Source: Diplonema papillatum (lineage: Eukaryota; Euglenozoa; Diplonemea; Diplonemida; Diplonemidae). Taken from it: a DNA stretch of 64,000 nt. Below are positions 10,990 to 63,521 of the stretch, piece by piece. The stretch spans positions 1 through 64,000 of the forward strand of contig JAPJBO010000973.1 in assembly GCA_030068145.1 (NCBI GenBank), read 5' to 3'. Every line of letters begins with the position of its first letter. The stretch's first letter is position 1. Made by a program: the position numbers and the translations under genes. Below the pieces are notes generated by a model that had not been told where the DNA came from, ran no database searches, and worked only from the letters and a program-made list of their open reading frames with translations.

Positions 10990-13990
<3,001 letters not shown>

Positions 13991-21935: not shown

Positions 21936-22371
21936 ATGGTTGACCCTTGAAACGCTTCACGCGGGGACAGGGTTAACTATCCTGGAAAGCTGCACTTTCT
22001 TCGTGTAGTAGGGTGTCTTGTGGATGTGCATGGAAAAAACAGGGGAGATCTCATTCTCTTGCATCGGGCCGTACCGTTAACCGCAATAGGTCTCCTAGGC
22101 TAAAAGCCTCTGGCCGACAGAACAATGTAGGTAAGGGAAGTCGGCAAACTGGATCCGTAACTTCGGGAAAAGGATTGGCTCTGAGGACACATGCGGGATT
22201 GTCAGTGCGGGTCAGGTCTGGGCTCAGATTGAAGGTGCTGTGAGTGGCGCTCGCGGGTGCTACCCGCGGCTCCTGATTTCTTCCAGGCCTTCTTGCATGT
22301 TGTGCCCGCAATGAAGTGTCAGCTTGGAACTGTTACGAACAAGAGGAATCCAACTGGCTAATAAATACAAC

Positions 22372-32933: not shown

Positions 32934-33213
32934 TATCCTCTGGTACGTGTGTGTGTTTTCTTTGGGTACGATCCCGATCCCGTATCGGCGTGCGGATTGG
33001 CGTCTTTCGACCTGTTTTGTTTGTTTGGCTCGACGCAGCACATACTTTTAGAGTGAAAGTTGGCTTAAACCCCCGGGGTTTTAAAGTTTCCGGGTGGTTC
33101 GGCAATATGAGAAAGATATCCTGTATGCCCTGCGTGTACTTACGGAGTGGCGGTTACACGAGGTAAAAGTATTGTTGTTCATCGTTGCTGGTTTCGGCCA
33201 TTATCCACGTTCC

Positions 33214-35655: not shown

Positions 35656-36036
35656 GTGGGAAGAGGATCACGCAGATATATTCGAGGGGTCCAGAGGGAA
35701 GCAAGTCATCCAGAGGACAATTACGACTCCAGTGCTGCATTTCGACTCAAAATAGTCGTACCCGACTTGTCGCATTATCTCTCCGAGATGATGCTCAACA
35801 GCTCTCGAAACGAGAGTCTCAAGCCGAAGCCGTTTGTCGCTGGAAACGTGAACAATCCAACCCTTAGACAATTCTACTTGTCTAGGTTAGGAAGAGTCGA
35901 CACCGAAGGATCAAAAAGCAACGTCGCTATGAACGCTTGGCTGCCACAAGCCAGTTATCCCTGGTGTGGTATTTTTTCTGTCACGGATGAGCTACGACAC
36001 AAGCAGGAGCGAGATAGTAAGTTGGCAAAAGCGTGA
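35656..36036 (+). CDS. Unassigned ORF, about 126 codons
   Basis: The plus frame is of balanced composition, unlike the simple-sequence frames around it: for example SHYLSEMMLNSSRNESLKP, then NVNNPTLRQFYLSRLGRV. No signal peptide, membrane segment or known motif is clear. It may be an isolated exon or a remnant. It is the only plus-strand frame between the two kinases that looks protein-like. Confidence 0.25.
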   Translation: MGRGSRRYIRGVQREASHPEDNYDSSAAFRLKIVVPDLSHYLSEMMLNSSRNESLKPKPFVAGNVNNPTLRQFYLSRLGRVDTEGSKSNVAMNAWLPQASYPWCGIFSVTDELRHKQERDSKLAKA

Positions 36037-37188: not shown

Positions 37189-39183
37189 GGACACACCTAA
37201 GTCGGGAAATTACTTATCGGAACGTTACCGATAAGTAATTTTTTGTTACCAATAAACAATTTCCTGTTACCGATAAACAATTTTTGTTACCGATAAATAA
37301 TTTTGTTGTTACCGATAAATAATTTCTCGTGTTACCGATAAATAATTTTCTGTTACCGATAAGTAATTTCTGCTGCCGATAAGTAATTTTGGTGTTACCG
37401 ATAAATAATTTCTGTTACCGATAAATAATTTCTCGTGATACCGATAAATAATTTTCTGTTACCGATAAGTAATTTCTGTTACCGATAAGTAATTTTGGTG
37501 TTACCGATAAATAATTTCTGTTACCGATAAATAATTTTGGTGTTACCGATAAATAATTTCTGTTACCGATAAATAATTTTCGATCCGAAACAAATTGGTG
37601 CCCGTGAAGGCTAGGTAGAAGCCCTCTTCAGGCACATTTTGCGCCCGGATAGCCGAAACTGGGATATACGGGACAAGATTTTGTTGCTGGAGAAGTGATT
37701 GCTCTGCCGCCCCCAAAGCCCAATCTGTTCAGCTGTGTTGATCACTTAGCTTTTCTATTGCTTCAGTGTGTCGAGAGAAGAGTTCGAGTAAGGTTTCGTA
37801 TATCACGTTACTGCCATGACGGCACCATGGCACTACAATCGAACAGACAGTCAATCAGAGTTGTCTTGTTTGCGTATCTGGGGTCTTATTTTTTTGGGGG
37901 GAAGGCCCTTTTGACCCTGGATTTTTCGAGAAGATTTTTGAAACAGCCCAAAGATATTCGTCGTTTCCTGATATTCGCGTAATTGTTGTCCAGATTACTG
38001 ACCGTGAGAAAGGGTTCCAAGTACAAGCTGTCAATTCTGTCTGAGTGCGCGACACAGTTTACCGATATCGCGTGCCTTCTGTGCCAGGGGTCGGATACGC
38101 TTACTTGCTATCCGGTGCTAACGTTGTAGAAGGCCCACCTATCAGCCTGAGTTCAGCTCCACAGGTTCGTTTCGTTAAGGCAACTCATAATCACTTCGGT
38201 GTGAGGGATTAGTGGCAGAAACGTTGACTTGGCCAAGAGTTGCCACAAGCCACCACAGCACAGAAGCGCAGCCGAGGGCATCCGGCAGGAGAAGTCATAG
38301 CTGAGAAACGCAAGCCTGCAGCTTGTGTTCTCGGATGAGTCAGGCGCGAGGCAAGCACCCGCCAGCCTCAGAGTTGAGTCGGGAAGGATACATGTCGATA
38401 TTCCTTGAGTGGGCATATGAAGCGCATGATTGCGGAAAAGGACAAGAAATAGAGCCATCTATTGTAGTCGCCGTGGCGCGTAGCATGAGCACACCTGCGG
38501 TGGGTTGAAGGGGTGCAAGATCCAAGTTTTGGGTCCAAGTTTTTGGTCCAAGTTTTGGGTCCAAGTTTTTGGTCCAAGTTTTGGGTCCAAGTTTTGGGTC
38601 CAAGTTTGGGTCCTAGTTCCAACTTGGTTCAACACTGGTTCCCTGCCACCAAAGGTGTTTGCCGCACAAGTGCTTTGTCGTTCTCTAGTCTGCCCGAGCT
38701 TAGTCCACCAATTATAGATCATCACACGCAGGCCTCGAAGGTTTTGCTTCCTGCTGGTTCGTTTCCACTGCGGTTAGCCACGTACGATGTCGTGAGCTGA
38801 ACATCCTCAAGAACGGACAAAAGCACTCACCCAGTAGCCCATTTTCCCATTCTTCAGTTGTCAAAAGAAACGATCATTTTCTTCTTCTCAAGTGTTGCGC
38901 TCCTCCAGAAGGCTGTTCGCAGGGATGTCCCGTGTTCAAGATGGATACCGTCAGAACTCAAATTTCTCATCCATCACAACAAGGAGGGGGTGGGTAACAC
39001 GAAATTATTTATCGGTAACAGAAATTGTTTATCGGTAACACGAAATTATTTATCGGTAACACGAAAATATATATCGGTAACAAAATAACTATTTATCGGT
39101 AAGAAAATAAGTACTTATCGGTAACAAAAAATTACTTATCGGTAACAGTTTCCGATAAATAATTTCCCGACTTAAGTGTGTCC
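37189..39183. mobile_element. Foldback-like element, 1995 bp, with tandem-repeat arms
   Basis: The left end ggacacacctaagtcgggaa and the right end ttcccgacttaagtgtgtcc are inverted copies. Inside them, the left arm (37200-37590) has about 20 units of gttaccgataaataattt, and the right arm (38998-39165) has about 8 inverted units (aaattatttatcggtaac). The ~1.4-kb interior has no transposase and includes a 14-bp tandem repeat (38519-38612). Long inverted arms made of short direct repeats are typical of foldback elements. No clear target duplication is visible. Confidence 0.75.
38519..38612. repeat. 14-bp tandem repeat ggtccaagtttttg
   Basis: About seven units alternating one base in the T-run, inside the foldback-like element. 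Confidence 0.85.
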
Positions 39184-43291: not shown

Positions 43292-46200
43292 TCAGTAGAA
43301 TCGGCCCCTGCCCTGGCGGGGCGCGGCTTGGTTGTACACCTGGTGCTGCTGGAGCTGCTGCTGCTGGAGGAGGGCCAGCGCGCGCCGCTTCTCGGCCAGG
43401 AGCTCCCGCGGGTGCGCAGGCGGGCAGTGCCCCGGGTACGCTCCGAGGATCGGCGGGAATCGGGAACGCTGCTCGGTGGGGCCGCTGTGCGTGTTTGGTG
43501 GTTAGGTGCAGTGGTTTTCCGCTTACCTACCCCCCCCCCCGTGCACAAGATGGATAGCCAAACCCCCTTGATTAAGATGGATAACGGGCGAGAATGCCAA
43601 TCCATCTTAAACACGGGGGTGAGTAAGGCGACTACACTGTAGTCTACAGTGCCCCCGTTAAGATGGATACCCCCCTTGATTAAGATGGATACCGCCAAAA
43701 CCCGAATTATTCATCCATCTTATGCACGGGGGTGTAGGTAGCCAACAAAATGAAACTGGTTGGCTAAAAAACTCTCACGGTTCACAAAAAACAGCATGGA
43801 TTGACAAACTCCCTTTCAGAAGTTGTTGGATTTGTCCATTTTTTTGCGACAACCAATTTCTGCTTCCCTGGAGACAGTATTTGTTACAGCTAAAAAGAAC
43901 GTTGGCAGCGGTTTAACCAGAACACACGTAGGTTAAATCGCACAAACAAAAAATAATTGCTCGTGCTATGGCTTGTGAGTTCAAGGCCGTGGATTGGTCC
44001 CCGATCCAGGTTGTCCGCGCCCCCGACGAGTGGGAGGCCGCGGAGGAAGACGTCGACTGCTGTGTCGATTGTGGAAAGATCCACACCGCGGGGGCGTTCT
44101 GTGCCCGATGCGGGAAACGGGGTCTGGCCACCTGCCTCAAAGCGGCGCTCCCAAGGGAAGTCGCGCCCCTGTTCGTAGACCACTTAGCGGCGGACGGGTG
44201 GGTTTGCCCCGCCTGCATAGTGGCGGTGCACCAGGCTGGCACCACTCTTCAAGAAGAGTTCCGTGTCCGGATCGCTCGTGCTCAAGAGCACGACGCTCCG
44301 CCGAGCTTGGCTCAAGAGCCATTGCTCGCTGCCGTTGAGGAGGGCCCGGTCAAGACCGCTCTCCTCGCTTTGTTCGCCCAATCTGCCTTCCAAAGCCTCC
44401 CGATGGCTGCGCAGGCCGCACCGGTCATGACCGAGGCGGTGGACCCACGCCGAGTCATGACTTGGGTGGAGGGGTTGGCGACGGCTCCGGGGCGCCAAGT
44501 CATCCTGTCCGAAATAAAAGGCAGATACGCCTACCATTTGGTTCCCGAGAACCCCCACGACGCGGGGAGCGTGGTCGACCACGAGCGCCGGACCCACTTC
44601 GTCACTCTTATCGCCCTGATGCCGTTGGCGTACCAGACCCCGCCCATCCTCCAGGTGCTCCATCACATCATGGTCCGCCTGGAGGCCCTGCGGCTGAAGT
44701 GCTTGCATGCGAACGGGATCGAATTCCAGATTGCGTGGGAGACCCGGTTCGGACTTCACGAAGTCGGCTCTGGTCCAGGCGCAAAAGTCCATGGCCGACC
44801 TCTCAAAAAAGGCGGACCAGAGGGACGAAAGGAGGGAGCACCCCTCGAAGAGGCCGCGGAAGTGAATTGCGGCGAGCGCTTCTGTTCCCACCGGCCTGCC
44901 TTCGGAGGGTTTGTGGAAGGAGTTGGCAGCGAGGTCACGACCTCGGAAAAAGGACTCCGCGTGCCCCGATCAAGATCGGTTCCGGACGGACCAGGAGTCA
45001 CTACTCCTCGCGTTGCAGAAGTGCTACAAGAGCACCCCTGCTATGCTGTCGGTGGTGAGCCGTGCTCAGAGGTACGCAGTGGAGGCCCGCCGGTTTTACC
45101 CCGCATTGTCCGACGAGGAGGCTTTCCTCATGTGGGTGAACCGGAAGATGATGGCCGGCGAGCTCACTGCCGAATCTGCCCTCCAGTACGCAACGTACTT
45201 CAGGATGTCCCGGGTGGACTGGATGGGTGCTTATCGCCGTTCGGTCAAGCTGACCATGGAACAGTTCGAGGGCCGACGCACCCGCGACGCCGGACGGACT
45301 CCGACCAAGGCGGCGATACAGTTGGTAGTCTCACGAGGCTCGTCCTTGCACGCCATGGCCCTCCGGTTCCAGTGGTCGACGGCTTGCAGGTTCGTGGATC
45401 TGCAGCGGATTCGGCTGGACCACATGTGGTCGGTGGACACAGGACAGGTCATGATCCTGTTCGTCGGCGGGAAGACCGACCCTACCTCAAGAGGCCAGGG
45501 TCTCTTGCTACCGCGAAGCGGTCCTTTTCTGACGCCTTTCTGGGAATGGATCACGATCCATCGGCCGGCCCTGGGCACCAAGGCGCCCCTGTTCCCCAAC
45601 CTGTCACGACAGGCCTACAACAGTTTCCTACAAGAGGAGCTGGGGGTGTCGTCGCACCGCATCAGACATGCCGCGCTGAGCTGGGTGGCCCTCCTGGAGG
45701 GCGAGCAGACGGCGATGAACGTGGGGCGACACCTGAATCCCAGGACGACGCGCTTATACACTCCGCATCACCTTTGGCAGCCGGTCCTGCTCTCAGCCCC
45801 GGGCACAGCTGCCTTGCAAAGGACTGGGTGAACAGCGGCCCCGCCAAACAATCGCTGTGGCCGCGTCATCTCGACAAGATCCTGCAGGGGTATGACTACG
45901 CCAACGGCTGGCTAGACGCGAGTAGCGGGAAACGGGTCACGAAGGCCTCGTATGACGGAGAGATCGCTGCGACCGCCCCGCCGTTCAATCACGAAGCGCT
46001 TCTGCAGGATTTCCCCAGCCTCCGCAGCAACATGAGGTGGGTCCTCGACGCCGCGTTTATCGCCACCATGCTGAAGCCGGGCTCGTTCGTATCCCGCAAC
46101 ACTCGTATGACGGAGAGATCGCTTGCTTGAGTTGGACGTCGCTGCACCGGTCCCTAAAGCGGCGTCTTCCCGCTGGTTCCACGGCGCGTTTACGGTGGAC

Positions 46201-49200
46201 AAACGGGCCCCCGGTCAGCTGCGCTTCATCCTCAGCTGCGAATCCATCAACCGGGCTACGGCACACGTGCCTCTGCCCCCCTGCGACCTGCCCAGCTACG
46301 CCACCATCGTGACTACGGTGCTGTCCCGCAAGTGGGTGGCTGAGTTCGACTTCCGCTCCTTTTTCTTCCAGTTTGCGCTGCCTCCAGAGGTCAGGAAGTA
46401 TTTATGTTTCCGTGTTGAGGGCAGGCTGATGTGGATGACGCGCCTGCCGATGGGCTACCGTGCCGCGCCTCAGGCGGCCCAGGCGGTCTCGCTGGAGCTT
46501 GCGGTTGCCGCCGCCCAGGGTGTTGACGTTGAGGTCCTCGCGTGGATCGACAACGTGATCTTCGTGGCGGACACTGAGGCCGAAGTTATGGAAGCCTCGG
46601 CTCGCTTCAAGGCTTTGACTTCGAAGTACGGCTTGACCATCGGGAGCTGGTCCAAGCCTTCTACCCGCGCGGTGCTGCTGGGACTGGATCTCGACCTCGC
46701 AGCGAAGAGATGGCGCGTGGACCCAGCCTGGACGATGAAGGCCGGACCGGTAATGGGCCAGATCCTGGAGTTCAGTGCGGCTCCCGTCCGCGTGTGGTGG
46801 AAACTGACCGGGTCTCTGCTCTGGCGTCGCCACGTGATGGGGTACCCTCTCCACGAGGTGCTTCCCCTCTTGCATTGGATGTCCGCCCTGGCCTCCGGCC
46901 GCGCGTCTACCGACAGCGCGTTCTGGGACTCCGTCGCGCCTTGCCCAGCTGCGGTCAAGAGCTGCCTCGCTGCCCAGTGCTCCGACATGCGGGGTAACGC
47001 CTGGCGGCAATGGTGCAGACCGGTTTACACTCGTTCGATTGATGTCGTCTCCGACGCCAGCATGTCGGCATGGGCATTCGTGGCAGACGGGTTCCATGTC
47101 TATGGGGGCTTTCCTTCGGAGTTGCTCCACGCGGACATCTTCATGAAGGAGCTATACGCCGTCGTTCGGGCCGTAGAGCACGCGGTCCACGCCCAGTCGA
47201 GCATGGACATCAACCTGCTTTGTGACAACAAGGCGGTGATAGGCTGCGTACGCCGCGGCTACACGCTTCGTCAGGATGCGATGCAGCTGCTAACTCTGAT
47301 CAACAAGAGCTTGGCCTCATCCAGGAGCCGGCTGAACATCAGCTACGTTCCGTCGCTCCAGAACATCGCGGATCAGTACACAAGACTGAATCGTCCGCAA
47401 TGTTAGCGCCCAACATCGACTTCCCGCTTCGTCGAGTCCTCGTCAAGTGGGTCGGTTGGTTTTTCCTCCGTGTGGCATGCAATTCATCATATCAGGCGAT
47501 CAGCCGCTTTTTTGCTTAGTTTCCGCCGGGTCCCATCCCGGGTTATCTGTCGCTTACGGTGGAGAGAAGGAGGGGGGAGGGGGGGTCCGAATAGGGGCCG
47601 CTCGTGCTCCGGTGCCTGTTCTTTTATGCGACAACCAATTTCTGCTTCCCTGGAGACAGTATTTGTTACAGCTAAAAAGAACGTTGGCAGCGGTTTAACC
47701 AGAACACACGTAGGTTAACTCGCACAAACAAAAATGATCATGAAGTAGTAAAATCCTCACTCCTCTGCTTGTGTCTGTCACTCTCGTCCACCGCTCCTGC
47801 TCTGCTTGCCGCGCGCCGTATAGTTGGAGTAAAAAGTGAAGCCAGAAAGCTGCTAATCTTGCTGCTGACCACATGAGGTGGTGTCACGGGAACTCCGAAG
47901 AAAAATGAAGCAAACGGTTGCTCACACGGCCATTAAAGCTGGGTGAGGGCTCCGCAAACGCGGTGAGAAGAAGCGGCGGACACCCGCCAACACGGCACGA
48001 CCCCCTTCTGCGGACAACGACGTTCACCTGTGAGCCGCCCCCGCAGCACAAGGCCTGGCAGTCACTCTACTGCAACAAACGCCCACCCTGTGACAATCAG
48101 ATGAGCCTGATCATGAGGTGCCTGTAAAGATCAGATGCCTGTAAATATCAGATGCCTGTAACGAACAGATGCCTGTGAGGGACAAATGTCTGGGAGAACG
48201 ATTGTCTGTAGTCACTACTGAGCGAGGCCTATAGCGAGCAGATTCCTGCAATGAACAGTTGCCTGCTATGCGCAGATGCCTGTCGACAGATCCTGTAATG
48301 AACAGACGGAACGCTCGGATGGAATGATGCAAGTGCGCAAACACCACAGGAGAAAAAGTACATGTGCGCCGGGCTATGCGCAGCAGTTAAAGTTCGGGAA
48401 ACCGTAAAGTTCGGGAGAAGCAAAGGTCGGGCGATGCTAAGTTCTGGACCAGAATCTGGTAGACTGACTCAAATTACCCAAGGGAACTCAAAAGCCACGA
48501 GATATTGAGAAACTCGGCAAAAAAAAACGCAAATGTCGGACACATTAGACCCCGAACCCCAAACTGCTGCCTCTACGCGCGAAGCGCAGCACTTTTTATA
48601 GTGTCATTTCGGAAAGCAGCAAAGTAACGGGCGAAACCAAGTTGCTAAGTTGTGGTGATGCAAAAGCAAAGTTCGGGTGAAGCAAAGTTCGGGCGATGCT
48701 CAGTTCTGGTAGACTGACCCACAATACCCAAGGGGACCCAAATACCGCGAGTTATTGAGAAACTCTGCAAAAAACGCAAATTTTGGGATGATAGACCCCG
48801 AAAAGCCCAACAACCCCCGAAAATCATTTTCGACCGGAAAAGTGCCTCGCCCGGGTTTCCTCGGCCGCGGGCCTTCAGGCCTGAATTGTGCGGTAAATAC
48901 CCGGTGCCGAGTCACGGATCGAAAACCCCGGAGCGGGGGAAATGGACTACTAGAAAAACGCGTACGGTAGGCTAAAAAAAGTGCCCCCGGGCTTCGCCCC
49001 CGACCCCCTAAAAAGTGGGGTTGGCTCGACAGAGCTATTAGCATATCCTCGTCTCGGACCAAGTAAACAATGTCCGATTCCACTGATTCCGACTCACTGA
49101 TTCGAAATCCGCTGGCTCCGTGGCAACAACAGATTTCGTCGCGGACCCGGAGCCCGATCACGAGCCTGAGGCTCGTGAAGGCCCGATGAATCTTGAGGAC

Positions 49201-51758: not shown

Positions 51759-54316
51759 TAACGCATCCTCCTACTGCGTACACTGCCTCAGAAGTACAGG
51801 TTGAAGGAAGCGCAAAGCCAGATCTTTGTTATGCGTGGTTAAACGAGACCGTCGAACCGTACTATGAAAGAAATGCGTAGTTTTGTTTTATTCTATTACT
51901 TGTTAGTTGTCGACAACTTGTTTTTGTGTTGAGGTGTCATTCAGATGTAAATCTAAAGCCGCCCACGTCAAATTTTGTTAAGCATTGAGTTCTTTTAAGT
52001 ACATGAACCACGTGGATTAACATGCACTGCCTTGAAAGTCAGGTTATCGGATGACGTCGTCACCTGCCATTGCGTCGTCAAGGTCGAGCATCTGTGGAGC
52101 TAGCGGGGTTTGGCTTTCTTGCGATTCCAGAGACTGAGTCGGCGAGTACGAGGGCGGGCACGTGTGTCCGTTTTTCACTTTCGAGGGCGTTGGTGTGCCC
52201 GTGGCCCCCGGTCGTTTCTGAGAGCCGCTTGCCCTCGGTACCTTCTTCTTCCTTCGATGCACCCCTGAGTCGGGAGTGGTCGCCTTCGTCTTCTTCCGCT
52301 TGCGGCCGGCGATCGGGCCTTCCTTCGGGGTGCCTAGCACCCTCTTCTTCAGCGCTGGTCGTTCGCTGGTTCCTGGCGTTGGTGGCGGCCTCTTGGTCGC
52401 CCGTCCGGTCGTCGCCGTCTCCTTTTTCGTTGCCGCGGGCGGCGCTTGCGCCGCTCGCTTTCCAACTGGCGTTCCCCGTTGTACGCCCACCTGGGTGGGT
52501 GAGGAGGGCCTCTTCTTCTTGTTGCGTCCGGGGGTTGACGGGAGGTTCGGTCCGTTGGACCGGTGGTGGCCGCGGCGGCAACATGCCGCCGGTCGCCTCT
52601 GCGTCAGCGTAGGGAGCCTCTTGCACTCTTGGCAGGTTCCTCTGCCACGCGTGCGGCAGGCATGACGCCCGCTGCGGCAACACGCCGCCGCCGTCTTGCA
52701 CTCGCCGCACTTCGTCGTGCTGTGCTCTGCGCACACCGCGATCGGCTGCCCATCGTTCGCGTGGCGATGGTGCCGGCAGCACATCTCTACCGTGGGCACG
52801 TCCCCTCGGACGAGTGCTCTGCACGCCTCACACTTCCCCTTGTGATGGGTCGCGCACGTGACGAACGCCTTCTCTACATCGACACCCGGCATATGCACGG
52901 GGTCGGGGTGCAGTTGTGGTGGGGCAGGCAGGGCCCACCTCGCCGCTCTCCGATCGTCCAGTCAGGGTACGCCGGGCACTGCGTCCCTACATCGCTTCCT
53001 TTCACTCGCTCCTCAAGCATCGTCCCCGTGTGTGCCTCGCGAAAGCGCGGCCTGGGCCGTACACCCGATATCCCCGAGATGCCCATGAACGACAGCGACG
53101 TCGTCGGGCACACCCTCTCCCCTCTCTTTGTTAAGCAGCGGCTGCCAAAACTTGCCGTGACACCTATGATCAAAGTAAAGTGGAGAAGAGAATAGAAGGT
53201 TGTCTAAAAGAGAAAGGGGGGGTAGTGAATATTTTTTGACCCTCGTAGCTCGCTGGGTCAGGCGCGCCAGGCAGGTGCTGGGCTAATTTCGGTCTGGGCT
53301 TGGACTTTGCAGTCTTCCCATATTCCTTTCGCAAGTCCTTTCGTGTACACCCACTCCAAACACGAAAGTGAGTTGAAGAAGGATGGTTAAAGATAAAGAG
53401 CGGTGTCGTCCGAGGGGGTCGTCTCAGGGCCGCCGACGTGATGAAGCCGTTAATCACTGGGAACTTTTAAGTACATGGAATACATGGATCAGCATGCACA
53501 GCCGTTAAGCAGCGGCTGCCGGCTTATCCCGTGATACCTTTTCAGAGAAGAGAGAAAGAGGAAGAGACGAATGCATCCACTTACTGCGTATCCTGTTAGA
53601 TCAAAAGCGAGTTCTACGACTGCTTGAACCTGCCGGTCAAGACGACAGGCTACAGGAAGTGCGTAACAAAAAGAAGCGCCAGATCATGCATCCACTCCAT
53701 TTGCGTGACGAAACGGGCCGCCAAGCAGCAATTTCCGGCAAGATCCTAGCTTCTTGTTGAGTGGGGTAGGTCTGATTTGTGTGCGGACACTGCTCCGCTT
53801 TCCCCCGAGCATACCTACGCAAGTGTGGGCTTTATCCCATGTGTTGACGAGGGAACGGGAGATCCCGAAATCCGCGAGCTTCAGTACACCCTCGTTGGAG
53901 ACAAGGATGTTCTGTGTCTTCAGGTCCCTGTGCAAGATGTGCTTCTTGCCCGTGTAGTTCACTGCCAGCGCAATTTGGATGAACCAGTCGAGCACTTGGT
54001 TCTCCTTCCACAGCGTTTTGCCGCCAGCCTTGGACCTTTCGATCTTCGTGCACAGATCGCCTTGCTCCATGTATTCCATTGCGATCATCAAGTTGTCGGT
54101 TTTGGTCGTCCAGCTGTTGATGTACCTGACGATGTTGGAATGGTGCGTGGATCGGAGCAGCCGCGCTTCAGACATTGCCTGCGTCTTCTCCTTCAACCCC
54201 ATCTTCGCCAAGTTGACCTGCTTCAAGACGCACAGGGAGCCGTCTGGTGCGGATGCTAGGTGGGCCACACCCATGGCGCCCTTTCCGAGCTGTCTGATCT
54301 TGTTGTAGCCTTCCAT
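43292..54316 (-). CDS. NIMA-related protein kinase NEK-B, three exons, complete
   Basis: A paralogue of NEK-A. The exons 53815-54316, 50758-51556 and 43292-43484 join in phases 1 and 2, the same as NEK-A, to 497 residues ending in TGA. Exon 1 has GKGAMG, Lys32, Glu50, the HRD loop at 129-131 and the DFG motif at 149-151. The first intron again splits the glycine of VG|TPYYLAPE. Exon 2 completes the kinase fold (NPHPF-type region reads HPFNGRDMRS), then has a Glu/Lys-rich coiled segment (KKLEDEHNEKKKKIKGEFDD) and an Arg/Pro/Ser-rich linker. Exon 3 is the shared tail (CPPAHPRELLAEKRRALALL) plus a Gln-rich stretch. All catalytic residues are present. Upstream of the ATG, ctccctttttcag offers a possible 5'-UTR or leader acceptor. 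Intron 2 (7.3 kb) holds a YR retroelement; intron 1 holds a family H ORF. Confidence 0.9.
43531..43735. mobile_element. Short inverted-repeat element (MITE D) beside the NEK-B exon 3 acceptor
   Basis: The ends ccccgtgcacaagatggat and atccatcttatgcacgggg are inverted repeats of about 19 bp. The inside repeats ccttgattaagatggata twice and contains a central palindrome actgtagtctacagt. It is non-coding and begins about 45 bp upstream of exon 3 in the intron. Confidence 0.7.
43845..43952 (+). repeat. 5' terminal direct repeat of the YR retroelement
   Basis: A 108-bp match to 47627-47734 with one or two differences. A 9-bp word, gctcgtgct, follows the left repeat and precedes the right repeat, and may mark a recombination core. 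Confidence 0.85.
43968..44865 (+). CDS. gag-like ORF of the YR retroelement
   Basis: The first ORF starts MACEFKAVDWSP. It has a zinc-ribbon-like set of cysteines (CVDC at 32-35, CARC at 45-48) and a further CPAC near residue 77, then a helical region without a known fold. Around 44740-44765 the frame must move by +1 to reach a natural-looking lysine/arginine-rich end (KKADQRDERREHPSKRPRK) with stop TGA at 44863-44865. Read without the shift, the frame runs on into non-protein-like sequence. By position it should bind element RNA or form particles, which is inference. Confidence 0.6.
44911..45831 (+). CDS. Tyrosine recombinase of the YR retroelement
   Basis: 306 residues starting MWKELAARSR. 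The catalytic pocket of the family is complete: Arg160 (STACRFVDL), Lys188 in the beta hairpin (VGGKTD), His249-x2-Arg252 (SSHRIRH), His274 (VGRHLN) and the nucleophile Tyr283 (TRLYTPH). The N-terminal ~130 residues form the helical core-binding part. It would join a circular cDNA to a target site by strand exchange, which explains the lack of an integrase. It is in the same frame as the end of the gag ORF, 46 bases after its stop. Confidence 0.85.
   Translation: MWKELAARSRPRKKDSACPDQDRFRTDQESLLLALQKCYKSTPAMLSVVSRAQRYAVEARRFYPALSDEEAFLMWVNRKMMAGELTAESALQYATYFRMSRVDWMGAYRRSVKLTMEQFEGRRTRDAGRTPTKAAIQLVVSRGSSLHAMALRFQWSTACRFVDLQRIRLDHMWSVDTGQVMILFVGGKTDPTSRGQGLLLPRSGPFLTPFWEWITIHRPALGTKAPLFPNLSRQAYNSFLQEELGVSSHRIRHAALSWVALLEGEQTAMNVGRHLNPRTTRLYTPHHLWQPVLLSAPGTAALQRTG
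46123..47406 (+). CDS. Reverse transcriptase - RNase H of the YR retroelement
   Basis: 427 residues. RT motifs are GQLRFILSCESIN, the first catalytic Asp76 in FDFRSFFFQF, LPMGYRAAPQ, and the palm motif WIDN (Asp143-Asn144), where most RTs have Tyr-x-Asp-Asp. RNase H follows with Asp311 (VVSDAS), Glu343 (KELYAV), Asp368 (LCDNKA) and Asp417 (IADQY). The fingers region before residue 1 is probably encoded in another frame (about 45800-46120, NSGPAKQSLWPRHLDKIL), so the true ORF likely starts earlier and crosses a frame change near 46120. Ends with TAG. Confidence 0.85.
   Translation: MLELDVAAPVPKAASSRWFHGAFTVDKRAPGQLRFILSCESINRATAHVPLPPCDLPSYATIVTTVLSRKWVAEFDFRSFFFQFALPPEVRKYLCFRVEGRLMWMTRLPMGYRAAPQAAQAVSLELAVAAAQGVDVEVLAWIDNVIFVADTEAEVMEASARFKALTSKYGLTIGSWSKPSTRAVLLGLDLDLAAKRWRVDPAWTMKAGPVMGQILEFSAAPVRVWWKLTGSLLWRRHVMGYPLHEVLPLLHWMSALASGRASTDSAFWDSVAPCPAAVKSCLAAQCSDMRGNAWRQWCRPVYTRSIDVVSDASMSAWAFVADGFHVYGGFPSELLHADIFMKELYAVVRAVEHAVHAQSSMDINLLCDNKAVIGCVRRGYTLRQDAMQLLTLINKSLASSRSRLNISYVPSLQNIADQYTRLNRPQC
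47627..47734 (+). repeat. 3' terminal direct repeat of the YR retroelement
   Basis: Matches 43845-43952. Its 56-bp core also exists alone at 7046-7101. Confidence 0.85.
47735..48080. other. NEK-B intron 2, no gene seen
   Basis: Unassigned sequence between the retroelement and the tandem repeats. Confidence 0.4.
48110..48320. repeat. Degenerate ~18-bp tandem repeat
   Basis: Units of the type agatgcctgtaaagatc recur about ten times with rising divergence to the right. Confidence 0.75.
48400..48600 (-). mobile_element. SINE-like family F, partial copy
   Basis: Shares gcgatgctaagttctgg, ctggtagactgactc, the gagatattgagaaactc block and gaccccgaacccc with the copy that follows. The tRNA-like head is missing. 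Confidence 0.55.
48660..48885 (-). mobile_element. SINE-like family F, second copy
   Basis: On the minus strand it ends with the same tail and starts from a decayed head (cccgggcgaggcacttttcc then ggtcgaaaatgattttcg). It is about 75 percent similar by eye to the copy at 50300. Confidence 0.6.
49120..49593 (+). CDS. Unassigned small ORF inside NEK-B intron 2
   Basis: 158 codons. The first 110 residues look protein-like (FYGKTHRMYMRRGKKQCLQD, then ALVTKKWSDTASEVADKLAR); the remainder enters the repeat shared with 9820-10030. I recognise no family. It could be the ORF of a non-autonomous element. It is on the strand opposite to the host gene. Confidence 0.3.
   Translation: MATTDFVADPEPDHEPEAREGPMNLEDRNLDEMPEAAKLFYGKTHRMYMRRGKKQCLQDALTRALVTKKWSDTASEVADKLARFEMKRKREQGGESSVCVEPTQAEKRCRLVQSVALPTCETGLGYSLPGPKRIPGATVAVHVLGRVPRVGRVFCNP
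49526..49740 (+). repeat. Repeat shared (inverted) with 9820-10030
   Basis: The two copies conserve a translated string, LGACLV-GGCFV-REVL-WCNP and then IHLKKDHT, better than the DNA around it. This hints at a decayed coding sequence, but both copies lack a complete frame. Confidence 0.6.
50181..50246. repeat. Single upstream unit of the NEK-B donor repeat
   Basis: Reads cacacaccgaacttgtacaa, then ttcgtcggatgtattaatct. It is separated from the main array by a SINE-like copy. Confidence 0.7.
50300..50450 (-). mobile_element. SINE-like family F, copy with intact tRNA T arm
   Basis: On the minus strand it begins gcggcgggttcgaatcccgc, a perfect T stem-loop and B box, followed by ccttgacattttcccggtcg and the family body to ctcagtatctcgcggtattt. 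A 5' tRNA half with an A box is not seen. It abuts the tandem array, whose unit includes the last bases before the B box. Confidence 0.65.
50446..50757. repeat. ~93-bp tandem repeats abutting the NEK-B exon 2 donor
   Basis: The unit runs cgcgatcgtctacgacgaga, aagggcacacaccga, acttgtacaagtgttgaagt, tattcgtcggatgtattaat, cttctaagatc. There are three full units and a partial one. Its last partial unit ends exactly where exon 2 begins, so each unit repeats the sequence of the real donor (GTGTGTGCCC on the transcribed strand). The unit is related to element G. Confidence 0.85.
51565..51757. repeat. GA-rich microsatellites beside the NEK-B exon 2 acceptor
   Basis: A GA run at about 51565-51590 forms the pyrimidine tract of the acceptor on the transcribed strand; a second run lies at 51732-51757. 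Confidence 0.8.
51898..53545 (-). mobile_element. Dispersed repeat family H, longest copy, carrying an ORF
   Basis: Blocks of this region recur elsewhere: gttagttgtcgacaacttg with gtgtcattcagatgtaaat at 26515-26608; ttgttaagcattgagttct at 19620; ccctcgtagctcgc with ctcagggccgcc and gggaacttttaagtac at 18000-18225. Terminal repeats are not clear, so the limits are approximate. It occupies most of NEK-B intron 1, in sense orientation to the kinase. Confidence 0.55.
52044..52898 (-). CDS. Cys/His-cluster basic protein of repeat family H
   Basis: 284 residues starting MHMPGVDVEKAF, stop right after DDAMAGDDVIR. The N-terminal third repeats a zinc-cluster-like unit three times: C-x2-H-x3-KC-x2-C (CATHHKGKCEAC; CAEHSTTKCGEC; a variant ending GTCQEC), each followed about 15 residues later by CCR-x2-x-H (CCRHHRH, CCRSGRH, CCRRGHH). 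The remainder is a long Lys/Arg/Pro/Thr-rich, probably disordered region, then an acidic tail. This suggests a nucleic-acid-binding protein, but no known family fits. A decayed second copy at 19354-19716 preserves the acidic tail, which argues that the ORF belongs to a mobile family. An in-frame stop precedes the chosen ATG by about 75 bases. Confidence 0.6.
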   Translation of the reverse strand: MHMPGVDVEKAFVTCATHHKGKCEACRALVRGDVPTVEMCCRHHRHANDGQPIAVCAEHSTTKCGECKTAAACCRSGRHACRTRGRGTCQECKRLPTLTQRRPAACCRRGHHRSNGPNLPSTPGRNKKKRPSSPTQVGVQRGTPVGKRAAQAPPAATKKETATTGRATKRPPPTPGTSERPALKKRVLGTPKEGPIAGRKRKKTKATTPDSGVHRRKKKVPRASGSQKRPGATGTPTPSKVKNGHTCPPSYSPTQSLESQESQTPLAPQMLDLDDAMAGDDVIR

Positions 54317-55440
54317 CTCTTCGCTATAGGGCTGTGGAAGAGTTTCCTCTGAAAAAGGGAGACTTGCTTTCTTTTTTTTGTCTTTTTTCTTCTTGTTTCT
54401 TCTCCTTTCTGTGAGAGCGGGCAACACGCAGACAAGAGCAGACGGAGAGAGGGGGGGGGGTGGGGGGTTCAAAACGCCTGGAGGAAATAAGTGGAAAAGT
54501 TGGTGTTTGTACAGTTTGGCCACGGGGGAATCTATATTTTCGCTCGCGGGTGGGAGTGACGACGGTGCTGTAAGTGGAGGAGGAAGGCCGATCCACGCAT
54601 TATCGCCTGCCGCTGCCTGTAGCTGTAAATCCATCCCCATCCCCCCGGAGCTAATAGAATTGCCTGGACCTGTCTACCGCGAAGGCGAGGGATGACACCT
54701 CCCTCCCCCAACCGGGGGAGGAGAGTCCAACGCCACGCGCAAAATCGAAGGCAGGGTTTGCTTCTCCGTGGAAAAGAGGTCCATTCCCACGCTTCGCCGG
54801 TGAACGCGTGCCGGCTCGTCCCCACTGCATCTCCAGCACTTCGATCGTCTCCACACCGCCCCGGAGATAGAAGGTGGACTGGCTCACGCCAGAGTCTGAC
54901 CGAGCCCTAAATGCCACAACCACAAACTCAAAGATCCTCGTCTTCCATCGCTTGTTTCTCCCGCTGGACACTGCAAGAAAGCTCATAAATGGTGCTGAGT
55001 TTGTTAAGCAACTCGTACGAAACAGTTTCAAGTCCGTTCCCTTGACCGCTCTTCCGCCAGATAGTAAGTATGGACAGAAGAAACTTTGTCGGTTCATTCA
55101 TGCGCGTCCTTAATTAGAGCACGAGGCTTTTGGCTACCTTACGAGAGTCATAACCATCACGTCGTTGGTCTTTCAGCGTTGACGCCGAGGTCACAACAGG
55201 CCTCTCGACCCCAGGCCCCTGAACCCGCGAAATACGGTCGGTTTAGTGGCGCAAGAAAACGAAGGAGTGATGCTCGTGCAAACAGTTGGGTGTGTACACC
55301 CGTTCTACCGGAGTGAGAGTGTGGAGAGGTACACTGTACCTGGCACAGTCAAAAGAAGAGACACATAGGTTTGTTGAATCAAAACAGGAAGAAAATCGAA
55401 AGGTTGGTGCCGCGATGCAGTTTGACACAGGGACCCAAAA
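54317..55440. other. 5' flank of NEK-B, no gene seen
   Basis: The sequence upstream of the NEK-B start codon is pyrimidine-rich on the transcribed strand to about 54450. Beyond that, frames are short and unrecognised. Confidence 0.45.
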
Positions 55441-57857: not shown

Positions 57858-60800
57858 TCAGGAGGCGGCGTCGCCAGTTCTCCGTTCCTTGCACGCGACG
57901 CAGCCGAGGGAGAATTCCTGCCCATTCGGCGGGTGATGCCCGCCGGACGGGCACTCCTCCGGGCCCGGGCACACCGGTGTCGGCCTCGCTATGGTTTGGT
58001 GGCACGAGTCGCAGAAGTGCGTTGTGCCCCAGCAGAACCACACCGCCGGGTGGCAGCAGTAGCGGCACTTGAACTGGATGTACGTCGAGCCGTGCACGGG
58101 GCACTCTGTCTTGTCCACGCACGCGCCGCAGATCAGGTCGTCCCGGTTCGGCCAGTCGCGGTCGTTGTTCTGCTCGGCGTCACACCGGCGGAGCCCGCCG
58201 AAGTACGCTTTGTCACACTTAGAGCACTGGTAGTAGTTCAAAACGCTTGCGGCGAAGTCCAGGGGCCGCCGGTAAAACGGCTGGCCGGGCTGCACAAGCA
58301 GAGGGGAGCTGTGCAAGCCTTCGATTCGGAGGCGCTCGAGCCAGCGGGATTCGAGGTCTTTGCGGAGTTTGAGCAGCGGGGCGAGGAGCCGCGAGAGCGC
58401 CGGGTCCGCGTGGGTGACCGGGCGCTGGCACACGGGGCAGTTCATGAAGGCGAACGAGATGTGCACCGCGGGCCACTTCGCGGCCAGCCGCTGCGCGAGG
58501 CAGGCGTGGTGCACGAAGTGCGAGCACGGCAGCTGCACGGCCGGCGCGGCGGCCAGGGGCTCCGTCCAGCAGATGGGGCAGAAGTCGTCTCCCGTGTCGC
58601 TGGTCCGCCCGTGTGCGTCACACCCCGCCACCAGGCACGGAGGACACCGCTCCTCCCCTCGGACGCCGGCGCACGAGTGCCCGCAGGGCAGCACCCGGGC
58701 GCATGCGTTGGCGGCGAGCGCCCGGCACTCCGCCGCCGCGCACACAAACGCGTGCGCGGGCGGCGCAGCCGCCGACACGCTGCTGCTGCAGCTGCTGCTG
58801 CTGCTGCTCGGCGGGGCGACGGCCTTGGGCTTGAAGTGCCTGCGGTGCAAAAACTGGAAAAACGACGGTTTCGAGGACGCGGCTTCAAAAGACGAGGACG
58901 TGCTCGCCGGGTGGCTCGAAGGGTGAGCCGGGAAAAAGTGGGTCGAAACGGGGATGTCTTGCTCACGGACGGGGTCCGAGCAGTACCGGCACTGGCGGGG
59001 ATGCCGGTGTTCCTCGCACGTCTTGTGCAGGTGGTACGGCGTGGAGAGGCACTGCTTGCAGAAGTCGGTGCTGCAGTTTCCGCAACGCAGGCGGGACGTG
59101 ACGAAGGCCCGCGCGTGCGGCCTCTTCATGCACCACCCGTCGACTGCGACCCACTCTTCCGAGTCGGCTGGCGGCCCAGGCTTCGGGCCGGCCGACGAGA
59201 ACACTTTTTGCAGGACGCCCCACGGCCACGCCGGCTCCTTTTCCTCCTCCCAACTTCTCCCCTCGTCCCCTCCCCCCAAGCCCGCCGCGCACGCGCTTTG
59301 CTCGTCGATCCGGCGCAGCTGCGCTGCGGCCCGCGAGGTGTCAACCTCGGTGACCACCCCGCAGCACGGGCACCGGACGAAGTCGATCTTGTTGCCCGCC
59401 GACTCTATGGCGGCGTCTACCGTGCGCCGCGCCAGCATCTCCAGCTCGCCGTCGTCCAGCACCGCACGAAGCACGCGCTCGGGTGCTTGGGCTTTGCAGG
59501 CCGCGGGCGAGTCTCGGTACGGGCAGGGGATGGCTTGCACGGTTGCGGCACCGGCCGCTATGCAGCGCGCGGCATAGCGTTTGAAGCAGGCTTTGCACGT
59601 GTACAGCCCGCAGGCGTCGCACTGGACGATGCTGACCGACTGCGCGGACGGAGAGACCACGCCGACGATCTCGCTCACCGGCCGGCTGCACAACGAGCAC
59701 GACACGGCCGCGTCGAGCCCCCGGCTGAGCATCATCGCGAAGCACTCGGGCGCCGCGTGCTGCTGCACCAAAGCTGGGGGGATGCAGGCGGAGCAGCAAT
59801 GCGCCCCGCCTATGGAAAGGTTGCACGGTATGTTGCCTTGGTGCGCGTTTGGCTCCACGATCGACCGGGCCACGTGCGCTTTGAAGCAGTCCAAACAGCT
59901 GATCTGCTGGCAGCCCTCGCAAGTGACGACAGTGGGTTCGGCGTCGGCTTGAGAGCCGCGCGACGGTTTCGCAGACGGTGGGCGACGCTCGATTGCAGTG
60001 TCGCAACGAGCGCAAGCGAGTCTCGAAGCCGGGGAAAGGGGGGGGTGGTCGTGCTGGGGGAGGAACGAACGCAGGACGACGGCGGAGATGAACGCCGGGC
60101 AACCGGGAAGGTCGGATCTGCTGCCTTGGCAGGGGCAGTGGATGCGCGACGGTTCGACGCCCCGCTTGATCTCGTCTTGCAGGTGCTCTTCGAAGCACTT
60201 GGCGCACACCTTCGCTTCGCTGGCGTCGCACTCGACGAACCCAACGTACCCACCGCCCGTCGCCGCCTGCGCCTCGTCGTACAGCAAGGCGAAGCACAGG
60301 CTGCACTGCAGCAGATCCTGCGCGAAGGCCAACTCGAGCCCGCGGAACACCCGGAGCCCGCCGGACCCCCACTCCGGGCTTTCCCCGCACCGCGCAGCGA
60401 ACGACCGCCCCAACGACGACAGCGAGCTCCGCCTGCTCCTACCACGGGTGCCCGTCGGCAGCAACGCGTCGCAGGACTGCGGGATGCGCTGTTCAGGCGT
60501 CCGTTCCTTGCAGTGTGCGCTGGTTGAAGGCTGGAGTGCCCGCGGCAGGCTGTGCGTTGCACCCACTTCGCCGCACGGAGCGTCGCTGGGCGGCAACCGT
60601 GACGCGGATCCTCGCCTTTGGCCGACGGACGCTTGGCCAGTCTGCGCATCTGTCGCTGTGCAGCTGTGCTGCACCGGTTGCGATTCGGTCATCCCGCCGG
60701 TTTGCTCTTCGGTGCCGAAATGGATCGAAACGGCGGCGTCCGTTTGTACGGAAGGGCGCCTGCACGCGACCGTGTGTTCGAGTTCGGCATTGTCGACGGG

Positions 60801-63521
60801 TGCTGAACTGGTGGACAGGCGGGCAGCGTAGGCTTCTGCCTGCATCAGATCCCGCCGCAACCTTCGCCTCGGCAGTGGTGTCGTGCGCTCGTGTCGGTAC
60901 GCCTCAGGCCGGCCGGGTGACGGTGCCGTACACGATCTCGTTGCGCTTTTACAAGCCGACGGCGGCGGCGTCACGGTGAGCTTCACCGTTCGTTCCGCAC
61001 TCCCTTCCCGCCATTCCGCGCCCCCCCGGGACGGCGGAGGCGTCGTTGACGCGAGCCAGTCGCTCTCGCCGCTGGCCGTTGCGACCGGTACCGGACGGGC
61101 GCCGCCAGGGCACTTTACGGGGTCCGTCGACTGCCGGGCCCAGCTGCTGCTGCTTGCCCCGCCGCTACCCGGCGGGGTTTTAGTTGCCAGCGCGTGCGGC
61201 GGGCAGCCGGTTGCAACCTCCTCAGCACACGGCCCTCCGCAGGTGTTCCTGGCGGCGGGTTCTCGCTGCTGACTGGGTACGGTTGCTGTCTGCACGGGCT
61301 GGACTCCGTTCGTCAGCGGCGGACCTTCCTCCCGCGGCTCCTGGCAGGTGCTCCTACCAGCGGGTGCTCGCTGCGGACTGCCGAGGGATGTTATTGCCAG
61401 GCGACTGAGCTGTGGTGGCTGAACTTCGTTCATCAGCTGCGGACCATCTTCCCGCGGCTCCTGGCAGGTATTCATACCAGCGGGTGCTCGCTGCGGACCG
61501 AGGGACGACAGGTCAGCCTGCGGCTCTGTTGCTGTTGCCACGCGACTGAGCCGTGCTGGCCGAACTTCGTCCATCACCTGTCGACCGTCTTCACCCAGCA
61601 CGGCGCCGCCCGCGCCGGCTTCCCGCTCAGTCGGCGGGAATTGCTGCTGGCTGGGGGACGTTGGGTCGGCTCGCGTCTCCACCCCGGCGCAACTGAGTTG
61701 CGCCGGCTGCGACTCGCCCGTCTCCTGCGCCCGTTCTTCCGCGTCCGAAGCCGAAACGGCGGGCGGCGGCCGGCTGAGAGCTTCGCTTTCTATCCTGGAC
61801 GCCGTGCTCGGCCTCGCGCCGCCGACCCCTGAAAGCCCGCCAGAAACCGACGCTGCCGACGCCGCCCCCTCGGATGTTCCCCGGCTCCCGAGCTCCAGCT
61901 GACAGGGGGCCGCTGGATCCGACGAGGCTTCACCGACGCGTTCGTCGGGGGTCGAATGCTGCGCGCGGGTCCTAACCGACGGGCCGGCGCCGCCACCTCC
62001 TGCTGAGCCACCAGGGCCGCTGCCCGTGCGTTCGCGCCGGTCGCCGAACCGTTGGGTAGACGGCTGGGCTCGCAACCCCCGTTCCAGACGGGCGTTCCTG
62101 TGGATGCTACCATCAACCGGTGCTGTTTGCTGGACTCGGTCCGTGCTGCCGCAAGGGTCTTCGAGCCATTGGGCAGACGGCTGGGCTCGCAGATGGGCGT
62201 TGCTATCATCAACTGGTCGTGTCTGCTGTGTTTGCCGGACTGACGACCGAGCTGGGGGCTGGGCGACGTGTGCGGCGTCCGTGCTGCCGCAAGGATCTTC
62301 AAGCCAGTGGACGGGCGGGCTTGTGTGCACACATGGGCCGGTCAATTCCACAGCCGCTCCGTCCGAAGGAGGGTGCGCAGTCGAAGAGGTCAGGTCGCCG
62401 CCGCCGCGAGAGTTGGCAAGCCATTGGGAACCGGGCAACCGTCTTGGGTTCGAGTTTGAAGAGGAACAGTCGTCTGTAGCGCCAAGACAAGCAGGGACAT
62501 GGGCAGAGCTGGCAAACCATTGCGGAGCGGACGACTGTCCTGGGCTCGAGCTTGAAGGGGACTGGCTGTCGGCGGCGCCAAGACAAGAAGGGACGAGGTC
62601 GGAATTGGCAAGCCACCGAGGGGCGGACGGCTGTGCCCGGTTCGGGCTTGAACAGGAACGGGTGTCAGAGCTTGCCAGCCGTTGCTGGCCAGACGGCAGC
62701 TGCCCATTTGAAGGAAGGGCACAGCAGCCGGGCGCGGCACGAGGGCTTTCGAGCCGTTGCCGGCCAGGCGACACGTCAGAGCAGCGGCCCGACGACACGG
62801 CTGCGCAGAGACACCTGGAATGAAGGAAGGACGCTCTCGCCTCCTCGGCCGAAAGGACGTGCAGCGGGGTGATGCCGTGGCGGCGGCTCCCGTGGGAAAG
62901 GAGCAGCTCGGTTACCATGTGCACCGTTGCGGGGTGGAGGCGCAGGAATGCGGTGACGCGGAAGGTCGGGGCGCCGGCGGCCGGGGCCGCCGAGTTGCTC
63001 CGCCGCTTGACGCGGGGCTGCGGCTTGGCGCGCGGGAGGTACGGCGAGAGCTCGACGCGGTTCGCGCTGACCGCCACGAGCGGGCGCCGCTCGTGGGTCT
63101 GCGAGCGCCGCCGCGGCGGCGCCGGCTGCCGGGCCGCTGGCTCCCTTTCGAGCAGCATCTCGACCCTCGCCGAGCAGTCGTGGCCGTCGTTGCTGTCGTG
63201 CGTGTGCTGCACGGCGGGTGCGGTCGGGCAGAGGAGGATCCTGACGTGATCCGAAAGCGACCCTAGCTGGGCGCCGAAGGTGTGCGCCGGGGCGGCTTGC
63301 CCCGCGCCGGCTGGGGCCGGGCGGGAGGCGAAGCCGAGGGCCGCGTCTCTTTTGGAGGCGACGGTGCCGAACAGCCGGCCGGTATCGCGCCACGCGAGCA
63401 CCAGCACCCTGTCCTTGGCGCACATCCCGGCCGCCGCGCCAACGTCCTCCTTTGCGCAGCGCTGCAGCACCGACCGCAGGGCATCCTCCAGCCCGCCGCC
63501 GCCCCGCCGGCCGGCCGCCAT
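57858..63521 (-). CDS. Giant E3 ubiquitin ligase: RING/IBR-like clusters plus MYCBP2-type RING-Cys-relay module
   Basis: An uninterrupted 1887-codon frame, ATG at 63521 and stop TGA at 57858-57860. Residues 1-230 are of unknown fold. Residues 230-1070 are low-complexity, with tandem repeats such as WLEDPCGSTD (twice) and QRAPAG-x3-TCQEPRE. From Cys1073 come three related RING1-like units (starting CSLC at 1073, CARC near 1172, CSLC at 1275), each with CF-x2-H and a closing Cys pair. Then comes an IBR-like cluster (CPCC near 1384; CGNCSTDFCKQC near 1477). At Cys1648 begins a RING (CPIC...CSHFVHHAC...CPVC) followed by the tandem-cysteine domain of MYCBP2/PHR ligases: KCDKAYFGGLRRCDAE, LICGAC, KCRYCC, FCWGTTHFCDSCH. 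By spacing against human MYCBP2 (from memory), Cys1780 and Cys1830 match the relay cysteines 4520 and 4572, and Asp1795 and His1841 match Glu4534 and His4583. The protein should therefore transfer ubiquitin by thioester relay. A standard RBR RING2 is not seen. Confidence 0.85.
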   Translation of the reverse strand: MAAGRRGGGGLEDALRSVLQRCAKEDVGAAAGMCAKDRVLVLAWRDTGRLFGTVASKRDAALGFASRPAPAGAGQAAPAHTFGAQLGSLSDHVRILLCPTAPAVQHTHDSNDGHDCSARVEMLLEREPAARQPAPPRRRSQTHERRPLVAVSANRVELSPYLPRAKPQPRVKRRSNSAAPAAGAPTFRVTAFLRLHPATVHMVTELLLSHGSRRHGITPLHVLSAEEARASFLHSRCLCAAVSSGRCSDVSPGRQRLESPRAAPGCCALPSNGQLPSGQQRLASSDTRSCSSPNRAQPSAPRWLANSDLVPSCLGAADSQSPSSSSPGQSSAPQWFASSAHVPACLGATDDCSSSNSNPRRLPGSQWLANSRGGGDLTSSTAHPPSDGAAVELTGPCVHTSPPVHWLEDPCGSTDAAHVAQPPARSSVRQTQQTRPVDDSNAHLRAQPSAQWLEDPCGSTDRVQQTAPVDGSIHRNARLERGLRAQPSTQRFGDRRERTGSGPGGSAGGGGAGPSVRTRAQHSTPDERVGEASSDPAAPCQLELGSRGTSEGAASAASVSGGLSGVGGARPSTASRIESEALSRPPPAVSASDAEERAQETGESQPAQLSCAGVETRADPTSPSQQQFPPTEREAGAGGAVLGEDGRQVMDEVRPARLSRVATATEPQADLSSLGPQRAPAGMNTCQEPREDGPQLMNEVQPPQLSRLAITSLGSPQRAPAGRSTCQEPREEGPPLTNGVQPVQTATVPSQQREPAARNTCGGPCAEEVATGCPPHALATKTPPGSGGASSSSWARQSTDPVKCPGGARPVPVATASGESDWLASTTPPPSRGGAEWREGSAERTVKLTVTPPPSACKSATRSCTAPSPGRPEAYRHERTTPLPRRRLRRDLMQAEAYAARLSTSSAPVDNAELEHTVACRRPSVQTDAAVSIHFGTEEQTGGMTESQPVQHSCTATDAQTGQASVGQRRGSASRLPPSDAPCGEVGATHSLPRALQPSTSAHCKERTPEQRIPQSCDALLPTGTRGRSRRSSLSSLGRSFAARCGESPEWGSGGLRVFRGLELAFAQDLLQCSLCFALLYDEAQAATGGGYVGFVECDASEAKVCAKCFEEHLQDEIKRGVEPSRIHCPCQGSRSDLPGCPAFISAVVLRSFLPQHDHPPLSPASRLACARCDTAIERRPPSAKPSRGSQADAEPTVVTCEGCQQISCLDCFKAHVARSIVEPNAHQGNIPCNLSIGGAHCCSACIPPALVQQHAAPECFAMMLSRGLDAAVSCSLCSRPVSEIVGVVSPSAQSVSIVQCDACGLYTCKACFKRYAARCIAAGAATVQAIPCPYRDSPAACKAQAPERVLRAVLDDGELEMLARRTVDAAIESAGNKIDFVRCPCCGVVTEVDTSRAAAQLRRIDEQSACAAGLGGGDEGRSWEEEKEPAWPWGVLQKVFSSAGPKPGPPADSEEWVAVDGWCMKRPHARAFVTSRLRCGNCSTDFCKQCLSTPYHLHKTCEEHRHPRQCRYCSDPVREQDIPVSTHFFPAHPSSHPASTSSSFEAASSKPSFFQFLHRRHFKPKAVAPPSSSSSSCSSSVSAAAPPAHAFVCAAAECRALAANACARVLPCGHSCAGVRGEERCPPCLVAGCDAHGRTSDTGDDFCPICWTEPLAAAPAVQLPCSHFVHHACLAQRLAAKWPAVHISFAFMNCPVCQRPVTHADPALSRLLAPLLKLRKDLESRWLERLRIEGLHSSPLLVQPGQPFYRRPLDFAASVLNYYQCSKCDKAYFGGLRRCDAEQNNDRDWPNRDDLICGACVDKTECPVHGSTYIQFKCRYCCHPAVWFCWGTTHFCDSCHQTIARPTPVCPGPEECPSGGHHPPNGQEFSLGCVACKERRTGDAAS

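Follow-up and report, generated by a model that had tools for sequence, protein, structure and literature searches.

A predicted relay-type ubiquitin ligase with an RBR-type RING1-IBR front end in Diplonema papillatum

The stretch of Diplonema papillatum DNA analyzed here (64,000 nucleotides, referred to as the window) carries on its minus strand, at 57858-63521, an open frame that runs from ATG to stop with no in-frame stop and predicts a protein of 1,887 amino acids (P0001; all of its features given below lie on the minus strand). The preliminary description of this locus was confined to 57858..60310, corresponding to residues 1071 to 1887 of P0001, and its placing of RING1-IBR and a relay (RCR) module in a single frame is borne out, both lying in this one open frame from ATG to stop. 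Residues 1 to 1040 (60402..63521) are of low complexity and in part repetitive; Pfam recognized nothing in them, and the DNA that encodes them includes a tandem array at 62409-62666; that they are coding is predicted from the open frame alone. From about residue 1070 the protein is rich in cysteine (72 of its 103 cysteines lie at residue 1045 or beyond), and the order of domains in this part is two RING1-like copies, RING1, IBR, a cysteine-rich linker, the RCR RING and a tandem-cysteine (TC) domain. A Pfam scan of P0001 detected the RCR RING with three RING models, each under its cut-off, together with a weak B-box-like match at residues 1195 to 1216 (E = 0.0074).

Elsewhere in the window, pieces of eukaryotic large subunit (LSU) rRNA are scattered among protein-coding DNA (22152-22336, plus strand, 54 bits; 35797-36007, minus strand, 116 bits) and are possibly inserted rDNA fragments. 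On the plus strand, 43968-47406 holds a 720-residue open reading frame without a Pfam match followed by one of 427 residues with an RVT_1 match (5.4e-8), and may be a retroelement. Two tandem arrays about 1.4 kb apart (37224-37581 and 38993-39148) consist of GTTACCGATAAATAATTT and roughly its reverse complement, and may be the ends of a mobile element. A 2.9-kb C-rich array at 26718-29642 has the unit CACTCA, and the pair of 2-kb intervals covering it have GC skews of -0.60 and -0.76. Protein-kinase frames occur at 32250-33041 and 53687-54640 (both minus strand), and V-ATPase subunit a is found in two separate minus-strand frames (4512-5393 and 10466-11473) that look like exons of one gene. 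A search of the window for tRNAs found none.

The most readily recognized part of P0001 is its carboxyl terminus, where residues 1643 to 1882 match the RCR module of MYCBP2 (5o6c, E = 2.3e-64; 6t7f, E = 2.4e-64; phmmer against all PDB chains). The RCR RING (residues 1648-1698; 58428..58580), located by Pfam and by the MYCBP2 alignment, presumably binds E2; the TC domain (residues 1766-1877; 57891..58226) was delimited from conservation and from the alignment to 5o6c and 6t7f. Within the latter, Cys1780 (58182..58184) aligns with the first (upstream) relay cysteine of MYCBP2, Cys1830 (58032..58034) with the second (esterifying) cysteine, His1841 (57999..58001) with the presumed general base, and Asp1795 (58137..58139), the acidic triad member, with the MYCBP2 Glu just before LICGAC; we take the human MYCBP2 counterparts to be C4520, C4572, H4583 and E4534, respectively. 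The RING, the TC domain and these four residues are all as first proposed for this locus, and all align with the two MYCBP2 structures. We assessed conservation in an alignment of 121 rows (P0001 plus 120 of 148 hits). Of these rows, 117 have Cys at the first relay position (three Trp, one Ser), 119 have Cys at the second (one Trp, one Ser), and 119 have His at the His1841 position (one Tyr, one gap); the acidic position is Glu in 67 rows or Asp in 42 (109 together), P0001 having Asp. Because the relay residues are conserved and aligned with those of MYCBP2, we regard the relay module, as judged from its sequence, as real and that of P0001 as probably active.

The rows of this alignment with Trp for a relay cysteine (P0059, P0070 and P0088) have Trp also at structural cysteines, at positions that are Cys in nearly all other rows. 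TGA is read as Cys in the Euplotes-type code, and the pattern suggests that these are genes in which TGA encodes Cys and that were translated in the database with TGA as Trp.

Directly ahead of the relay module, the preliminary description placed three RING1-like clusters and an IBR-like cluster. These correspond to RING1-like copy a (residues 1073-1141; 60099..60305), identified by a RING1 HMM and as a repeat of copy c; copy b (residues 1170-1246; 59784..60014), identified as a repeat of copy c; RING1 itself, or copy c (residues 1275-1342; 59496..59699), which has eight cysteines and no His at the usual position; a segment corresponding to the RING1-IBR helix region (residues 1347-1380; 59382..59483), placed by alignment, its helix being predicted; and the IBR (residues 1384-1514; 58980..59372), placed by a family IBR HMM. 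Pfam did not find the IBR in P0001, either in the whole protein or in the RING1-IBR segment. We therefore give the scores of HMMs built from relatives without P0001 (16 rows for IBR, 13 for RING1), run against its first 1590 residues with 200 shuffles of residues 1041 to 1590 as the control. The IBR HMM scored 45.8 bits at 1467-1521 (best shuffle 7.2) and the RING1 HMM scored 21.0 bits at 1275-1373 (best shuffle 4.6). With the latter HMM copy a reached 9.8 bits (1104-1160) and copy b 3.9 bits, below the best shuffle, and a joint RING1-IBR HMM gave 5.8 bits for copy a and 5.2 bits for copy b (best shuffle 3.9). The shuffles thus rule out chance as the source of the RING1 and IBR signal; the one exception is copy b when scored with the RING1 HMM. 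In local alignment to copy c, copy a scored 64 (matched by one of 1,000 shuffles) and copy b scored 80 (matched by none of 1,000), and the two scored 53 against one another (matched by three of 1,000); copies a and b look like RING1 repeats. Of the four clusters originally proposed, then, the IBR and the third RING1-like cluster stand on their HMM scores, and the first two are weaker and repeat-like.

The assignment of these domains to the RBR type draws on the relatives as well. Pfam IBR (PF01485) was detected in 10 of the 56 rows of alignment A3 that were scanned whole (E up to 0.1) and in 13 of 17 RING1-IBR segments, that is, 13 of 16 relatives (E up to 1; best 4.3e-9). A helix-IBR profile of 15 relatives, searched against the PDB, returned nine matches at E up to 1, and RBR ligases account for six (three HOIP/RNF31, three ARIH2). 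The top match, and the sole one below 0.1, was the isolated HOIP IBR (E = 4.8e-4); the other five RBR matches (E = 0.14-0.23) fell behind an unrelated ferric uptake regulator (0.11). Through the helix region the HOIP match of the relatives' profile is weak (5.0 bits) and collinear. A RING1-IBR profile (A4; 17 rows, P0001 among them) matched HOIP (0.003) and ARIH2 (0.04), in both cases spanning RING1 into IBR, although generic RINGs outscored the RBRs (TRIM32, 2e-4). The RING1 of P0001 is a variant, because the usual His is absent (CDACGLYTCKAC versus CxHxxCxxC), and 92 residues separate the halves of its IBR, where 15 relatives have 22-52. On this evidence from profiles and alignments, the IBR before the RCR module is real, and the RING1 directly before the IBR is real but weaker than the IBR.

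The combination recurs well beyond P0001. We counted IBRs in the 96 rows, P0001 included, that cover at least 85% of the RCR core (the other 25 of the 121 rows being dropped). An IBR lies upstream of the RCR in 40 of these 96 (37 by pattern and three, P0018, P0042 and P0105, by inspection), four have other upstream sequence (P0015, P0025, P0063 and P0078), 51 are too short to tell and one (P0039) is ambiguous. We label the four, together with P0046, 'animal-like'; the label is our own, and from the styles of their gene names we take P0046 to be from a sponge and P0050 from Mastigamoeba. Several IBR rows of about 500 residues begin with Met just before RING1 (P0014, P0043, P0045 and P0048), and P0043 comprises 52 member sequences on 44 contigs. 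Besides P0001 there are 39 IBR rows, and nine of them show the first half of RING1 (CxxC...CxHxxCxxC, with D or W allowed for single cysteines); many of the remainder begin too late to show RING1, many rows being fragments, and in several relatives RING1 is not recognizable by this pattern. No relative was confirmed in viral_contigs and genome_contigs (viral or prokaryotic collections). Homology searches with residues 1040 to 1887 and with alignment A1 gave 0 of 8,000 scored candidates each; that with A1 missed known relatives of permitted length, and our guess is that low-complexity stretches probably swamped the shared words.

The preliminary description knew of no described protein like this one, and that impression of singularity gives way before the 39 other sequences with an IBR upstream of the RCR: because IBR and RCR occur together in dozens of related sequences, P0001 is no freak fusion. 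The same sequences bear on the idea that two neighboring genes, or an artefact of reading, have been mistaken for one frame. Residues 1 to 1040 have no homologue recognized by Pfam, as that idea would allow, but the open frame is single and without a stop, and the 39 others in which the IBR precedes the RCR include P0009, P0013 and P0053, whose EukProt names resemble those of Trinity transcripts; we consider such an error very improbable.

Between the IBR and the RCR RING, where an RBR ligase would have its RING2, lies the cysteine-rich linker (residues 1511-1634; 58620..58991; alignment A5), with the pattern CRYC/CRFC ... VC-x4-C ... C-x5-CGHxCxG ... CPPC/PCL ... C. Alignment A5 has ten invariant positions in 14 rows, including three that are animal-like (P0046, P0078 and P0015). 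The linker sits just upstream of the region covered by the MYCBP2 structures. A search of the PDB with the linker profile gave nothing below E = 0.77 and no RBR at E up to 5, and a comparison of the 14 rows with Pfam gave nothing below E = 0.036 and, at E up to 1, neither a RING2 model nor one for IBR. That the linker is a hidden RING2 is therefore not supported by the alignment or by the PDB and Pfam searches. Since it is not RING2-like, and since the stretch from IBR to RCR holds no further cysteine cluster (the lone Cys1578 apart), the catalytic RING2 of RBR ligases seems, from sequence, to be absent, with the RCR following instead. The earlier proposal that RING2 had been replaced by, or fused to, an RCR module is consequently retained in part: the RCR does follow RING1-IBR with no RING2 between them, but a simple swap is not what we find, because a separate linker intervenes and is present in animal-like rows too.

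With no RBR RING2 recognizable, the relay module thus stands, by sequence, at the place of the RBR catalytic domain. Our main reading, to which we assign a probability of roughly 0.72, is that P0001 is an RCR-type thioester E3 of this arrangement, in which RING1-IBR is regulatory or recruiting and not a second catalytic center, and that the animal form is derived. Excerpts of two papers (PMC9527308 and PMC6769291) describe relay chemistry that runs from E2~ubiquitin to the first cysteine, to the second cysteine and then to a hydroxyl. If P0001 works as MYCBP2 does, the RCR RING (1648-1698) would bind E2~ubiquitin, and the ubiquitin would be handed first to Cys1780 on the mediator loop, next to Cys1830 and finally, with His1841 and Asp1795, to a substrate hydroxyl (Thr/Ser). 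RING1-IBR would serve as a regulatory or recruiting platform, either as a second site for E2~ubiquitin or as an allosteric ubiquitin sensor of the kind found in RBRs. In RBR ligases, ubiquitin has an allosteric site on RING1-IBR, at the helix (PMC9834252), so that a ubiquitin-gated relay is plausible by analogy.

Two other divisions of labor between the RINGs can be weighed against this one. RING1 might be the main dock for E2~ubiquitin, as in RBRs, passing ubiquitin to Cys1780 and leaving the RCR RING a structural role only; the RING1 of RBRs recognizes E2~ubiquitin (excerpts of PMC5758712), and the RING1 first half is seen in those nine other IBR rows, with many others beginning too late to tell. 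The RCR RING is nevertheless the better preserved of the two, as 39 of 40 IBR rows have Ile, and one has Val, at position 1650 between its first two cysteines (I1650 in P0001), whereas RING1 lacks its His in P0001 and escapes the pattern in several relatives, and we judge docking at RING1 to be improbable. The second possibility is that RING1-IBR takes no part in transfer and acts as a zinc scaffold or as an arm for a substrate or partner, the enzyme working exactly as the MYCBP2 RCR does. Animal-like rows manage without RING1-IBR and RING1 is poorly conserved, both of which fit a scaffold; the IBR, on the other hand, is strongly conserved (11 invariant positions in 15 rows), although most of these are presumed zinc ligands, which a scaffold would keep too. 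We hold a purely structural RING1-IBR to be a rather doubtful account, if less so than docking at RING1, and continue with the regulatory or recruiting role.

The acceptor is a point on which P0001 may depart from MYCBP2. The position after the second relay cysteine (1831 in P0001) is Trp in 34 of 40 IBR rows, with five Phe and one Gly, and is Phe in all five animal-like rows, P0046 counted. The Phe adjoining the second relay cysteine is, we assume, part of a cluster of three Phe in MYCBP2; such a cluster at the MYCBP2 esterification site holds the methyl group of Thr, according to excerpts of PMC6769291. Since P0001 has Asp at 1795 where MYCBP2 has Glu, and Trp at 1831 where MYCBP2 has Phe, its acceptor preference may differ from that of MYCBP2, and perhaps is not for Thr.

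The history of the architecture was considered with a maximum-likelihood tree built quickly from the RCR core, by a short search and with no bootstrap. The tree is unrooted, 30 of its 93 inner branches lack resolution, and two of the animal-like rows, P0063 and P0078, are of odd composition. When it is midpoint-rooted, IBR rows lie on either side of the root and, within the bigger half, in all three larger groups (of 11, 17 and 29 rows). The four animal-like rows without an IBR fall into one 12-row group (SH-aLRT 98), along with the IBR row P0105 on a long branch. Unless the true root is at or close to the animal branch, this distribution favors an ancestral RING1-IBR-RCR protein from which the animal line lost RING1-IBR. 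The MYCBP2 form of animals, which lacks RING1-IBR, is probably derived; this is inferred from a tree that is unrooted, comes from a short search and contains the unresolved branches and odd rows noted above. As a tentative extension, to which we give rather less than even odds, relay ligases might have begun as RBR-like enzymes, the ancestral RCR E3 being a compact protein (about 500 residues) of RING1-IBR-linker-RING-TC order, with its relay module at the place of RING2 and switched on by ubiquitin at RING1-IBR, this part having been lost in animals when the module joined the giant MYCBP2.

These results suggest that relay ligases make up a broader family, which seems to occur in microbial eukaryotes, MYCBP2 having hitherto been treated as a lone case; of the 45 rows that extend far enough upstream (among P0001 and 120 of 148 hits), 40 have an RBR-type IBR. 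The architecture links two thioester E3 classes that are now classified apart, opens the origin of ester-forming ubiquitin ligation to direct testing, and offers enzymes of about 500 residues for structural and biochemical work in place of the giant MYCBP2. Among the open-access literature matches listed, no title or abstract opening concerned RING1-IBR-RCR proteins or protist RCR ligases; the founding RCR papers, which may note the architecture, fall outside that scope. A 2026 compendium of human E3s (PMC13061254) places MYCBP2 among the atypical E3s and describes the RING1-IBR-RING2 triad as 'invariably linked' in human RBRs.

The sequence features tested place P0001 in the RCR class, as a member bearing an RBR front end, and outside the RBR class, because no RING2 was found. 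With MYCBP2 and the PHR proteins (5o6c, 6t7f) it has in common the RING and TC domain, both relay cysteines, the His and an acidic residue, and the animal-like relatives have the same cysteine-rich linker as the IBR rows; it differs from MYCBP2 in the RBR-type RING1-IBR ahead of the module, in Asp for Glu at 1795 and in Trp for Phe at 1831. PHR/MYCBP2 proteins have PHR, RCC1 and DOC domains upstream, and Pfam found none of these in the 1,887 residues of P0001. With the RBR E3s (HOIP/RNF31 and ARIH2) it shares the RING1-IBR order, and the family profiles match both; unlike them, it has no recognizable RING2 or RING2 catalytic cysteine, and an RCR module in their stead. A further comparison is with LUBAC (HOIL-1 plus HOIP), for which a ubiquitin relay between two catalytic cysteines has been proposed, with HOIL-1 forming the ester (excerpts of PMC9527308): there too a two-cysteine relay would be combined with RBR parts and ester formation, but the relay would run between two RBR subunits, whereas P0001 would join RING1-IBR and an RCR relay in one chain.
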